Assembly (NCBI GenBank): GCA_000496135.1
Contig: KI542675.1
Location: 778,755 to 842,754 of the forward strand
DNA length: 64,000 nt
Reading direction: 5' to 3'
DNA from: Thermoplasmatales archaeon E-plasma
GTDB taxonomy: Archaea; Thermoplasmatota; Thermoplasmata; Thermoplasmatales; Thermoplasmataceae
Shown here one piece after another: positions 17,870 to 23,071 of the stretch; positions within the stretch are counted from its first letter, which is position 1, and each line of letters opens with the position of its first letter. A model generated the notes under the pieces. The model worked only from the letters and a program-made list of their open reading frames with translations, was not told the origin of the DNA and did no database searches. Both the position numbers and the translations under genes were made by a program.

Positions 17870-18375
17870 TCATCATCTTCTGCCAGTTCTTGAATCCTTT
17901 CCACACCATCTATTTCCTTTATGATGTTTGAGACCTCAACTGGTACCTGATCCTCCCATTTTAAACCTTTTAACATTTTTTCACGTATTTTGGTTCCGGA
18001 CCATTCATCCCTGTTTGTTAATTTAACCGCTTTAACGTCATAACCTTTTTCCTTGAAAAGTCTCCGGACCAGTGGATTGTTGCTGTATATTGCCTCAAAA
18101 TCAGGTGTCAATGACTCAACATGGGCTACCCAGAGCGGGTTTGAATTGACATCTTCTATTGGGATGATATAGAAATTCAGTATACCGGCAGATTCCAGGG
18201 AATTTGATATCATTAAATGCCTTTCACCGGCGGTGAATGGATTTTCCATGGTGTGTGAATACTGTGCACTTCCTATTCCAATAATAACTGATGAATAATC
18301 CTGAAGGATTTCCTTTATGACATGCAAATGACCATTGTGAAATGGCTGGAATCGACCCACAACGAAGGCTCTCAT
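17866..18375 (-). CDS. nadM: Nicotinamide-nucleotide adenylyltransferase
   Basis: A 169-residue archaeal NMN adenylyltransferase, which makes NAD from NMN and ATP. The nucleotidyltransferase signature GRFQPFHNGH is at residues 7-16 and the second ATP-binding motif is SGTKIRE (about residues 127-133). The middle VGIGSAQYSHT block fits the family. Length is typical. It is convergent with, and slightly overlaps, the M20 peptidase gene. Confidence 0.95.
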   Translation of the reverse strand: MRAFVVGRFQPFHNGHLHVIKEILQDYSSVIIGIGSAQYSHTMENPFTAGERHLMISNSLESAGILNFYIIPIEDVNSNPLWVAHVESLTPDFEAIYSNNPLVRRLFKEKGYDVKAVKLTNRDEWSGTKIREKMLKGLKWEDQVPVEVSNIIKEIDGVERIQELAEDDD

Positions 18376-18495
18376 TAGGGCATAATGCTCAACCTGCTTA
18401 TCTTTTTTTCATTGAAAAGTATGTCTCGCATAGTTAGAGAGTGTGGTTAAGGTGACTTTAATACATCCATAAGTTAAATTTCAATGTCTTAACTC

Positions 18496-19449
18496 TCAAA
18501 TAAGGTGACATTTACCGTATAAGGTGTCAGAATTAATTAATGCAGTCAGAGACTCTGTGCACTTCTCCTTGAGTGATGATATCTCATCCTTAAGCACAAT
18601 TGCTTTCTCAATCTCATCCTGAAGATTAACATGTAGATCATGGGATTCAAATATGTTATTAATTCTGGTATTAAATTCCAACCATAAAGGCTGGGGTATA
18701 ATCGCAACTGAATTTCCATCGAAGGAAAGTGTTGTAAGTGATCCTGCCCTTGATAGTTTTTTCTGCTTGACCTCACTCTTCATCTCGGGACGATGAATAA
18801 ACTCGAGCTTGAAATTAACCAATGAAAATATGAGTTCACTTTTGTAAAGTATTTCCTTCGGGTTATCCTTGGGATTTGATTCAAATTCAGTTATGATACC
18901 GGATGGATTTATCATAAGATAACGTTGAATCTCTCTGGCAAGGACTGGAAGCACACTGGCATATTCCATTATAAATTTCTGATACTTTTCAAATTCTTCA
19001 CCAAATAAATTATCAATACCTGTAATATGATTGCGAACGAGATCATCCCATAGTGGTCTTTCTGCAATTTTAGGCATTGCAGGGATTGTATTGGACATAC
19101 TTTGAATTGGCCATGGTAATACAAGAGATCTAATCATATCCTCCGCCACCTTTTTAAGAATTGATTGATGAACTGCTTTTCTCTTTTGTTCTTCTTCAGA
19201 TATTGATTCCATTGAGTCGTATGGTTTGACTCCTTTTACAATATATTTCTCCTTTTTTACCCTCCCAGAAGTAAATTCAATATCATCTGAAGAAACCCGG
19301 TTTAATTTCACATACAACTCGTCTATGTTTTTTCGCAAAAGATTCAGATCCTTCTTTAAATAAAAGCGGTTGAAAAGGTATCCTATAATTAGTATGATAA
19401 AGATTGAAATTAGAACGGAAGCGGCAATTACTGATGCTGAACTGGTCAC
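18496..19449 (-). CDS. Hypothetical membrane-anchored protein (317 aa)
   Basis: One N-terminal membrane segment (about residues 7-29) is followed by a mainly helical soluble domain with a coiled-coil-like stretch (about 30-55) and another at the C-terminus (about 275-305). I do not recognise the family and see no catalytic motif. The start overlaps the stop of the aminotransferase gene by 4 bases, so it is translated from the same message. A link to aminotransferase function is not implied by the sequence. Confidence 0.7.
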   Translation of the reverse strand: MTSSASVIAASVLISIFIILIIGYLFNRFYLKKDLNLLRKNIDELYVKLNRVSSDDIEFTSGRVKKEKYIVKGVKPYDSMESISEEEQKRKAVHQSILKKVAEDMIRSLVLPWPIQSMSNTIPAMPKIAERPLWDDLVRNHITGIDNLFGEEFEKYQKFIMEYASVLPVLAREIQRYLMINPSGIITEFESNPKDNPKEILYKSELIFSLVNFKLEFIHRPEMKSEVKQKKLSRAGSLTTLSFDGNSVAIIPQPLWLEFNTRINNIFESHDLHVNLQDEIEKAIVLKDEISSLKEKCTESLTALINSDTLYGKCHLI

Positions 19450-20591
19450 TTATACTCACTGAAGAATTCCCCTATTTTGGCTATCCCATTAATAATATCG
19501 TCTTCGGATGCAGCATAGGACAATCTAAAATGCATCTCTCCCTGATCTCCAAAGACAGACCCCGGTATTGTAGACACACCTTTTTTTTCAAGAAGCTGCA
19601 TGCATAACTCTCTGGACTTCAAAGGAAGGTCGTATTTGGGAAATAGATAGAAAGCACCCTCCGGTTCTTTTAAACTTATATTTGGAATTTTTTTCATTTC
19701 TCTGATTGCTATTTCACGTCTCTTCTCAAACTCATTCCGCATCCTTGTTGATTCTTCATAGTGGTCAAGGGCAAATATAGCTGCCTGTTGAGAGATCGAT
19801 GGCGCACATGTAATTGTCTGTTGCTGGAAAGTATCTGCAGCCTCAATTATATCGTCTGAGGCTATCATAAAACCGATTCTCCAACCCGTCATTGCAAAAC
19901 TTTTGGAGAAACCAGATAAAATTATTGTGTTTTTGAGAGCTGGATCCAGATTCAATGGTGAGAATAGTTTTCCGTGGTAAATGAGGTCTTCATAAATTTG
20001 ATCACATATGAAGTAAATATTGTATTTTTTACAGAGTGAAAGTATGTGTTTAATGTCTGATTCTGATAATACTTTTCCCGTGGGATTGCTCGGGTTTGAA
20101 ATTAATATAGCTCTTGTTCTTGGATTTATCAGACCTTCCAGATATTCAAAATCTATTGAAAAATCTTCTCTGGAGGGAAAGCTCACAGGTTTTACCCCAT
20201 TCAATCTGCAAATATCGGGGTATGAAAGATAATAGGGTTCAGGAATAAGAATTTCATCGTCATCATCACAGATTGCCATTATGGATAGATTTATTGAAAA
20301 TTTTGTTGGAGTGACAAGAACATTTTTTGCGGATGTTGCAGTATAACGTCTAGAATACTCAGCGGCGATTTTATTTCGCAACTCTGAAAAACCGAGAGAT
20401 GGTGTATAGTGAGTAAAACCTTCTTTTGCTTTTTCATGGGCATAATCAATGATGTTATCCGGGGTTGTAAAATCAGGCTCACCGATACCAAAGTTATAAA
20501 TTTTTAAACCTCTCGATTTCATTTCCTGAACCTTGTTACTCAGTGAAACTGTTTCTGATTTCAATACTCTTGATACCCTTCTGGAAACCAT
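19446..20591 (-). CDS. Class I PLP aminotransferase (aspartate-type)
   Basis: A 381-residue fold-type I aminotransferase. The Schiff-base lysine is in SGFSKSFAMTGWRIG (about residue 232), the pyridine-ring Asp in NIYFICDQIYEDL, and the substrate-carboxylate Arg in MHFRLSYA near the C-terminus (about residue 357). N-terminal EMKSRGLKIYNFGIGEPDF fits the AspC/AlaT-like group. Amino-acid specificity cannot be read from sequence. It is the first gene of a pair with the overlapping membrane-anchored protein gene. A structured RNA lies about 170 bases upstream on the same strand. Confidence 0.85.
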   Translation of the reverse strand: MVSRRVSRVLKSETVSLSNKVQEMKSRGLKIYNFGIGEPDFTTPDNIIDYAHEKAKEGFTHYTPSLGFSELRNKIAAEYSRRYTATSAKNVLVTPTKFSINLSIMAICDDDDEILIPEPYYLSYPDICRLNGVKPVSFPSREDFSIDFEYLEGLINPRTRAILISNPSNPTGKVLSESDIKHILSLCKKYNIYFICDQIYEDLIYHGKLFSPLNLDPALKNTIILSGFSKSFAMTGWRIGFMIASDDIIEAADTFQQQTITCAPSISQQAAIFALDHYEESTRMRNEFEKRREIAIREMKKIPNISLKEPEGAFYLFPKYDLPLKSRELCMQLLEKKGVSTIPGSVFGDQGEMHFRLSYAASEDDIINGIAKIGEFFSEYK

Positions 20592-20761
20592 GGAACACCA
20601 ATACCACTTTCTTAATTAATTCTTTTTGGTGAGAGATGAGTAGTAATATACAGAAATGCAAACGGTACAGTTAAAATTAAAAAGTTTATGTTTCTTCCTT
20701 TAACATCCGTGTTATAATACACTTTACAATAGACTTTACGCGAAGTTTGCCACGAATCTTT

Positions 20762-20864
20762 GGGCACTCCCGTAGTTAAGCATGTGGAAGCTGGAGTTCT
20801 ACCTGCAATGGAAACTCAAGTCCCTGAATTGGTAAGCCTACCGACTTACCCAGGAGGAATGCCC
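20762..20864 (-). ncRNA. Unassigned structured RNA (three-way junction)
   Basis: The ends pair over nine bases (20856-20864 with 20762-20770); on the minus strand the one imperfect pair becomes U-G, on the plus strand C-A, which favours the minus strand. Inside are two hairpins: GGTAAG/CTTACC (20831-20850) extended by CCTG/CAGG, and a stem of about ten pairs around GAGTT/AACTC (20788-20822). A U-rich tract, read ACTTTTTAATTTT on the minus strand (about 20672-20684), could end a transcript of about 200 bases before the aminotransferase promoter. It does not match 5S, SRP, RNase P or riboswitch patterns I know. Confidence 0.5.
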
Positions 20865-20899
20865 CTCAAATAAGATATTCCTAATTGTTCAACTTTCCA

Positions 20900-23071
20900 C
20901 TAAATCTTATTAGTTTTCCTTAAGTATATGCCTATGACTGCAGCAACCACAGCAACCAGTATTATGATGATAATAATGTTATCCCAGTTGTAAGGCTTAG
21001 GCCCGGAAGTAGGACTGGGTGGGATCTTAGTAAGGGGAGGTATATGCAGAGTTTCGCCCGGAGTAATATCGTATGTACTATTGAAAGATTCATAACCAGG
21101 TGCTGTTATTCTTACATTGTAAACCCCTGCTGTCACGGTAATGTTAAATTTACCGTTTACAATGGTAATTTCTTTCCCATTAACATATACACTTGAGTTC
21201 TTGGCATTAAGAGTTCCAACTATGTATGAGTAATGAAGATATGGTATATTAGAAACAATTCCTGTTCCATTATAATGAAGGTATCCTGATTGGATACTTG
21301 TATAGTAAAGGGAAGTGTTGTAATATTCATAACTATAATTTTGATACTGTGCATTGATGACAGTGAACACTATTTCACTTCCATATGATTGAACTGTTTT
21401 TCCGTTAAAAGTAACTGACCATAACGTCCCAACCATCAGTGAGGGAACCATGAACGCCACCACGGGTCTTACCCATGGCTTCATGAGAGGATACTGGTCA
21501 TTGAATGTCCCGTTGATATCAAAAGGTGAATCACCAATACCATCATTGTTTTTATCGGATCCATTATAACTGCTCCAGTAGTTCCCCCCAACCGACATTG
21601 AAAGGTTAAACAGATCATTTGATGATGAAGACAAAATAAAGTTATGCCTTTTGTTATAGATAAAGTCATTGTGATAGAATATGCTGTTATTTGTGGAAGT
21701 CAAATTTAGCGGAATAGTGGAATTGTTGAAGTAATTGCCATAGAAGGAGTCGTTATAAGACAATTTAGAAAATATATCAGTATTATAGTTTAGGAAGGTG
21801 TTATTGGAAAATGTGGATTTGCTCGCGTTAAACATTTTAATTCCAATACTATCTGGCGCGCTGGAACCTTTTTGGTCGAACATATTTCCATTTAACACCG
21901 TTCCATTTACGTTCCTAAAATACAGCCCAAGGGAAACACTGGTATTATCATTATTCTGAATTACAGTATTGTTACCAAGATAGGTGGCTTTCATCCCATA
22001 TAAATCAATTCCTATTGAAGAATATGAAGAAGAGTTCTCATATATGTAATTCCCGGTAATGTTACTTTGTTGCCCGTCATTGATTAAAGTAAGCGTAACG
22101 CCATTCGTTATGGACGAATTGTAGAATTCCAGGGTATTTTCCGTAATTGAAATATTTGAAGGTTTAGTATTTGAGATTCCAATGATTGAAACTCTCACTG
22201 AGACTATCCTGTTCCCATGTTCCGTAATGTTACCTCCGGTGCTTTGAAACCCGGCTCCAGCGTTACTTACAGGAGTTCCGGAATAGAAATAAATATCGTT
22301 ATTCATGGCAACAATGTTTGTATTGCTTGTAGATACAGCCTGATTCGTCTCGATTGTGTTGAGCATTGAGATATTATTTCCTTTCATGGCGAGATTTCCA
22401 CTATATTCTGAAATAGCGCTGGCTGTGTTACTTCCTGTATTATTAAGCGTTATATGGTTATTAACAAGATTTATGTTAGAATAACTTGAATGTAAAGCCT
22501 CAAAGAGACTGCCGGTATTCCCTGAAGTTGCATTTCCTAACATGAAACGGTTGCCTGATATTGTGACGTTTGATGAATAAGCAGTAATTGCACATACTGG
22601 ATTTCCTGCTGTTGGGTCAAAATCTGGACTAATATTGAAACTGTTTCCAGAAATAATTGTGTTTGGACTGATGTAATTTCCTTGTGGCCCAATTGCAATA
22701 GAATTTTTTAAATAACCATTGAAATGGCTGCTTTTCACAGAAGTGTAATTACCTAAAATACATAGCCCTGTATGTGCTGTTGCAATCACTGTAATATTAT
22801 AGATTTCAGTGTTGGCAGAATTAATGATCGCTCCAACTCCAAATGTATTTAAAGCTGAATTGTAGATGATGTCATTGGAAAAATTTACATATTTCGATGA
22901 TTCAATAGAATTGAAATTACCATTTGAAGGTATCATTCCAGTTAAAATGGTGTTTGTTAAGAATGCCTTTGCGATAACTGAAGTATTTAGAGCAAATTCG
23001 CTATTTTCTACAGATATATTATCTGTTTGCGCACCTATGATTAAAGCGACTATTGCAGATTTAATATTCAA
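20900..23071 (-). CDS. Parallel beta-helix surface protein, C-terminal part after a frameshift
   Basis: A 723-residue open frame made mainly of Asn/Ser/Thr-rich beta-helix repeats of the NosD/PbH1 kind, with the rung pattern NxIxxNxF repeated from about residue 15 to 520. It then has an immunoglobulin-like/PEGA-like region (about 575-685), a Pro-rich linker and a final membrane anchor (about 692-717) ending in basic residues. It has no signal peptide: the same frame continues upstream to about 23112, where it meets the preceding 137-residue frame that does have one. The two are one surface protein gene split by a one-base shift. Confidence 0.8.
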   Translation of the reverse strand: MNIKSAIVALIIGAQTDNISVENSEFALNTSVIAKAFLTNTILTGMIPSNGNFNSIESSKYVNFSNDIIYNSALNTFGVGAIINSANTEIYNITVIATAHTGLCILGNYTSVKSSHFNGYLKNSIAIGPQGNYISPNTIISGNSFNISPDFDPTAGNPVCAITAYSSNVTISGNRFMLGNATSGNTGSLFEALHSSYSNINLVNNHITLNNTGSNTASAISEYSGNLAMKGNNISMLNTIETNQAVSTSNTNIVAMNNDIYFYSGTPVSNAGAGFQSTGGNITEHGNRIVSVRVSIIGISNTKPSNISITENTLEFYNSSITNGVTLTLINDGQQSNITGNYIYENSSSYSSIGIDLYGMKATYLGNNTVIQNNDNTSVSLGLYFRNVNGTVLNGNMFDQKGSSAPDSIGIKMFNASKSTFSNNTFLNYNTDIFSKLSYNDSFYGNYFNNSTIPLNLTSTNNSIFYHNDFIYNKRHNFILSSSSNDLFNLSMSVGGNYWSSYNGSDKNNDGIGDSPFDINGTFNDQYPLMKPWVRPVVAFMVPSLMVGTLWSVTFNGKTVQSYGSEIVFTVINAQYQNYSYEYYNTSLYYTSIQSGYLHYNGTGIVSNIPYLHYSYIVGTLNAKNSSVYVNGKEITIVNGKFNITVTAGVYNVRITAPGYESFNSTYDITPGETLHIPPLTKIPPSPTSGPKPYNWDNIIIIIILVAVVAAVIGIYLRKTNKI

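Follow-up and report, generated by a model that had tools for sequence, protein, structure and literature searches.

The window analysed here is a stretch of archaeal DNA of 64,000 nucleotides. In it, a class I/II aminotransferase gene (19446-20591, minus strand) and a PEGA-domain protein gene (20900-23071, minus strand) flank a gap (20592-20899) that, as a first-pass annotation stated, contains no genes. Within this gap, and outside both neighbours, the annotation placed a compact RNA of no known class, folded around a three-way junction and transcribed from the minus strand. Several parts of this description are present in the DNA. The nine-position closing stem GGGCACUCC/GGAAUGCCC joins 20762-20770 with 20856-20864, and its one imperfect position is C-A on the plus strand and U-G on the minus strand, as claimed. 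The GGTAAG/CTTACC hairpin is found together with its CCTG/CAGG extension. The second hairpin also exists, but it has eight pairs in the minimum-energy fold where ten had been counted. A minus-strand run of U, proposed as the end of the transcript, does lie near 20672-20684, but it reads TTTTTAATTTT and is interrupted.

How unusual is the fold? Taken alone, the minus strand of the feature folds at -41.6 kcal/mol (z -3.08; 2 of 200 shuffles were as good) and the plus strand at -31.4 kcal/mol (z -0.74). For a background we drew 1281 stretches of 113 nt from the window. None reached -41.6 kcal/mol, and 11 of them (0.9%) had z <= -3.08. Since 11 of 1281 stretches are equally unusual, such folds are to be expected in a 64-kb reading, and the fold alone is weak evidence. 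It exceeds chance only modestly; the homology described below exceeds chance by far.

The annotation also called for a covariance search against Rfam, which supplied no family for the stretch. At the gathering thresholds, all 4227 Rfam families, including the sotRNA families RF02656 and RF02657, gave only three tRNAs in the whole window, all of them elsewhere in it, and the gap had no match at E <= 10. Nothing tRNA-like and no tmRNA was detected at the feature.

A link to the aminotransferase gene had also been suggested. The orthologous gap in the congener G001 is shorter, about 233 bases versus 308, and its similarity to the feature is no greater than that of shuffled sequence. In G003 a different gene lies upstream of the aminotransferase gene, and the covariance model gave no credible match to the feature there (best 5.2 bits, E 0.14, minus strand). 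The conservation upstream of orthologues that would mark a cis-regulatory leader was thus found in neither genome. The gene has a probable TATA element of its own, ATTAATTAAG (20611-20620, minus strand), 20-29 bases before its start codon, and a similar motif is kept in both G001 and G002. Transcription likely starts from this conserved element, so the gene would need nothing from the feature. We therefore rejected an aminotransferase leader or terminator on the strength of the orthologue comparison and the interrupted U-tract. In the congener G002 (contig C17, L008:678-1391), the gap before the aminotransferase gene holds what looks by eye like a small alpha/beta-hydrolase-like gene, so the neighbourhood has been rearranged within the genus.

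Homology to the 3′ ends of tnpB genes

Positions 20762-20838 of the window show 74-78% DNA identity to the 3′ ends of tnpB genes in relatives. Our first DNA search covered the window's own genome and 40 relatives. The stretch from 20762 to 20838 or slightly further recurred there in many copies at ~70-90% identity, among them matches elsewhere in its own genome; the copies frequently lie near contig ends, as repeats do. Several are the 3′-terminal part of intact tnpB genes, with products of 411, 428 and 410 aa that carry the domains PF01385, PF07282 and PF12323, and in two of these intact loci an IS200-type tnpA (PF01797) lies upstream. When the search was widened to 117 genomes of the order, matches at E <= 1e-6 appeared in 15 genomes apart from that of the window, with per-genome values for the tnpB-end homology down to 4e-11; none of the 117 holds a closer copy of the feature, above 78% identity.

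The similarity extends to the protein frame. The translated tail of intact TnpB, VGRGTPEVTPVE.GALPA...GSP, corresponds to a plus-strand frame in the window, LGTPVVKHVEAGVLPAMETQVPELVSLPTYPGGMPLK followed by a stop (20760-20874; translation and Pfam), for which an intact TnpB (L002) has VGRGTPEFTPVEIGALPAMVTPVTETGSPLR and a stop. No stop interrupts this frame before 20874, and over its first 77 bases the feature aligns without gaps to several family members. Upstream of the feature there is no tnpB gene, only this C-terminal frame remnant, so the copy does not lie at a tnpB 3′ end as an ωRNA would.

Where does the element end? Two copies in G010 share 93% identity across 1.72 kb and part immediately past ...GGGAGGATGTCAC, which fixes the right end of the transposon there; similarity among element copies stops once the GTCAC end is passed. 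In TnpB ωRNAs the bases that follow the right end are the guide position. By DNA identity and the covariance match described below, we place a remnant of an IS200/IS605 tnpB 3′ end, comprising ωRNA scaffold and right end, at 20762-20865 on the plus strand.

The ωRNA family and the state of the window copy

We aligned 30 ωRNA scaffolds from relatives, excluding the window copy, and built a covariance model from the alignment. RNAalifold alone recovered four stems from these scaffolds. The family also has a pseudoknot between the loop of stem 1 (GGCA) and the UGUC that immediately precedes the guide. With the pseudoknot included, 94.5% of cells are paired over the 30 homologues; shifting the partners by 1-3 columns lowers the figure to about 36-46%. 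Both sides of a pair have changed in 56 cells of the alignment against a shuffled mean of 25, although such compensatory counts are inflated by kinship, and more weight belongs to the controls with shifted partners and to the exchange of whole stem-1 arms than to the shuffles. When the mini-elements described below are added, changes on both sides reach every one of the five stem-1 pairs and the final pair of the pseudoknot, and pairing is mostly maintained; in the pseudoknot an A-U pair becomes C-G. These comparisons give strong support to the predicted plus-strand RNA structure of the family.

The layout, with stem 1 and its loop pseudoknot followed by stems 2, 3 and 4, is that of the ISDra2 ωRNA (PMC10097598, PMC8612924), which has four stems and pairs bases -5 to -3 before the guide with the stem-1 loop region (PMC10097598). 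In ISDra2 and in the relatives alike, the RNA sits at the 3′ end of tnpB, overlapping its C-terminal codons, and the guide follows directly past the transposon end. The haloarchaeal sotRNAs (RF02656 and RF02657, cited in PMC12558985) overlap the 3′ part of tnpB and were later recognised to be ωRNAs. The relatives' scaffolds resemble them as archaeal RNAs over the 3′ part of tnpB, but no Rfam model matches either the stretch (E <= 10) or, at E <= 0.1, those intact scaffolds of relatives that were tested.

In the window the model has one match only, which scores 29.6 bits (E 1.4e-5; E 3.7e-4 genome-wide) and covers plus-strand positions 20760-20864; by this measure the window copy resembles a TnpB ωRNA. 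Pair by pair, its state is uneven. The place of the 5′ arm of stem 1 (20757-20761) holds TCTTT for GGGAG, and none of the five pairs can form. Stem 2 keeps 2 of 5 pairs and stem 4 keeps 2 of 8; the degraded 3′ arm of stem 2 and the degraded stem 4 occupy 20828-20852 in the alignment. In these three stems the copy falls short of an ωRNA. Stem 3 (20789-20822, plus strand), AGCUGGAG...CUCAAGUC, retains 9 of 12 pairs including its inner part, UACC/GGAA, and the pseudoknot retains all four, as an ωRNA should: its 5′ strand GGCA is kept at 20763-20766, as in the ISDra2 layout (PMC10097598), and its 3′ strand, UGCC where relatives have UGUC, is aligned at 20860-20863. The conserved ...GTCAC end is altered. 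Compared with ISDra2, then, the window copy has neither tnpB nor stem 1, has lost the greater part of stems 2 and 4 and no longer ends in exactly the expected sequence. At the guide position stands TCAAATAAGATATTCC (20866-20881, plus strand). Ten sites in the genome match it with at most two mismatches, and the only exact one is its own; the remaining sites are AT-rich and unconvincing.

This family structure accounts for the parts of the fold first described. The closing stem consists of both pseudoknot strands plus a chance extension, with 20763-20766 and 20860-20863 as its core. The GGTAAG/CTTACC hairpin, which lies within 20828-20852, is built from the ruined stems 2 and 4 and is missing in homologues, and the second hairpin overlaps ωRNA stem 3. 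As a whole, the minus-strand structure is kept poorly by the family: any single homologue preserves only 15-21 of 33 counted pairs. The homologous scaffolds and the tnpB frame lie on the plus strand, which contradicts transcription from the minus strand. What survives of the first-pass reading is an origin in a structured RNA within a gap free of genes; the strand, the proposed fold and the absence of a known class do not.

Transposons of the genome and its relatives

In the window's genome, which is 96.3% complete, we found no intact tnpB: all traces are truncated, frame-shifted or interrupted, so no cognate TnpB for an ωRNA was found. No intact tnpA was found either; its sole trace covers 53 of 121 profile positions. 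Near the feature (window 20001-21500) nothing shows convincing similarity to a left end, and the same holds for a mini-element around it.

Two nearly intact ωRNA scaffolds lie beside broken tnpB genes elsewhere in this genome (L070, G000:C2:460233-460343, and L074, G000:C3:411133-411244). Their scores, 119 and 116 bits, are the two best in the genome, and no intact tnpB was found for them. Four weaker ωRNA-like matches (L126, L127, L129 and L130) score 26-52 bits, and at least two of these lie near fragments of a different tnpB subfamily. The genome also has an iscB gene (L125:1111-2889, on G000:C6 near 18283-18376) with RRXRR and HNH domains and an open frame of 445 aa. Upstream of it lies a HEARO RNA that scores 73.8 bits, under the Rfam gathering score of 83, and a mini-element of ~280 bp sits between the two. 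The HEARO RNA (the IscB ωRNA, RF02033) is, like the feature, a guide RNA of an IS200/IS605-type element, but it differs in fold and effector and stands beside iscB elsewhere in the genome, not in the stretch.

Searches with the covariance model also revealed 94-nt scaffolds without an adjacent tnpB in several relatives. They belong to mini-elements of ~280 bp that contain neither tnpA nor tnpB and consist of an IS605-type left end and, at the right end, an intact TnpB-type ωRNA scaffold. Over 60 bases the left end is 95% identical to its counterpart in the autonomous tnpA-tnpB element of the same genome, and the right end comprises a full ωRNA scaffold with GGTCAC as its last bases. G010 has nine such elements (copies on G010:C1), seven of them at least 89% identical to the query copy; others occur in G013, G018, G003, G015 and G036 (loci L156-L165, for example L157:1782-2063, L158, L161 and L163). 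Relative to tnpB-linked scaffolds, their stem 1 and pseudoknot carry compensatory changes, a sign that either the RNA or the end hairpin may be under selection. A narrow literature search found no description of such mini-elements and nothing specific on solo or orphan ωRNAs.

Remnants of this general kind have been described in another archaeal order. In Haloquadratum, core deletions in IS605-type elements leave short C-terminal transposase remnants, and non-coding pieces of their ends are scattered in the genome (PMC3119063). The window feature resembles these terminal-only remnants and PATEs in being a short C-terminal remnant and an end piece in an archaeal genome (PMC3119063). It is an end without transposase genes, the right end only. 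A PATE has both ends and can be mobilised in trans; the window feature, for which no left end was found, is not evidently mobilisable.

Origin of the feature

We conclude that the stretch is very probably a decaying right-end remnant of an IS200/IS605 transposon, corresponding to roughly its last 100 bases. The intact counterpart in relatives encodes the last residues of TnpB and, judging from the literature on IS200/IS605 elements, would be transcribed as the ωRNA scaffold and also form the right end of the transposon; the ωRNA would direct TnpB to DNA that matches the sequence just past that end. In this lineage an element may have inserted beside the aminotransferase gene, or only its 3′ end may have reached this place. 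All sequence upstream of the final ~105 bases would then have been lost, with the remainder mutating since. A relic is indicated by the lack of a tnpB gene upstream and of a convincing left end nearby, by a genome in which no intact tnpB or tnpA was found, and by the G001 gap without the feature. The window copy is probably dead.

Might it still serve as an ωRNA? A scaffold standing alone with its flanking guide could act in trans with TnpB or with a TldR-like nuclease-dead repressor. Well-structured solo scaffolds do exist in the relatives' mini-elements, the window's genome has two more that are nearly intact despite their broken tnpB genes, and the window copy preserves its pseudoknot strands. 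We nevertheless hold such use to be unlikely: pairing is disrupted in stems 1, 2 and 4, the family's conserved ...GTCAC end has changed, the guide has no exact match elsewhere in the genome and G001 lacks the feature. No intact TnpB was found, although one could be encoded in the missing part of the genome. The open frame and the gap-free first 77 bases speak against strong decay, and the perfect pseudoknot with the largely kept stem 3 could hint at residual constraint. The frame, the pseudoknot strands and stem 3 thus leave a small chance of residual function. It is correspondingly improbable that the solo scaffold is alive as one of a set of TnpB-less guide RNAs kept by the lineage, with a TnpB or a nuclease-dead relative from another locus as its partner in trans.

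More doubtful still is a structured RNA on the minus strand or an aminotransferase mRNA leader, possibly as a secondary use of the remnant. The energy and z-score of the minus-strand fold speak for it, as does the U-G at the single imperfect pair, but 0.9% of sampled window stretches reach an equal z and the fold is not preserved in homologues. The interrupted U-tract, the conserved ATTAATTAAG-like element of the aminotransferase gene and the failure to find the feature upstream of the orthologues in G001 and G003 weigh against it as well. As for a chance fold in unrelated intergenic DNA, it would agree with a fold that is only modestly unusual, but it is refuted by the tnpB-end homology together with the covariance match, and we give it next to no credence.

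The right-end remnant that we favour takes a candidate new RNA class off the list: the feature is probably an ordinary relic. What is left of a GC-rich structured RNA still folds, and it can fold better on the wrong strand. The comparison also yields a new covariance model for the TnpB ωRNAs of this archaeal group, one that detects solo scaffolds in related genomes too, and the compensatory changes back an ISDra2-type pseudoknot in a distant archaeal lineage. Were use in trans to be true of the window copy, the relatives' mini-elements would be the well-preserved version of the same strategy. They raise a question of their own: is a guide RNA retained in tnpB-less elements because it lets a TnpB provided in trans protect them?
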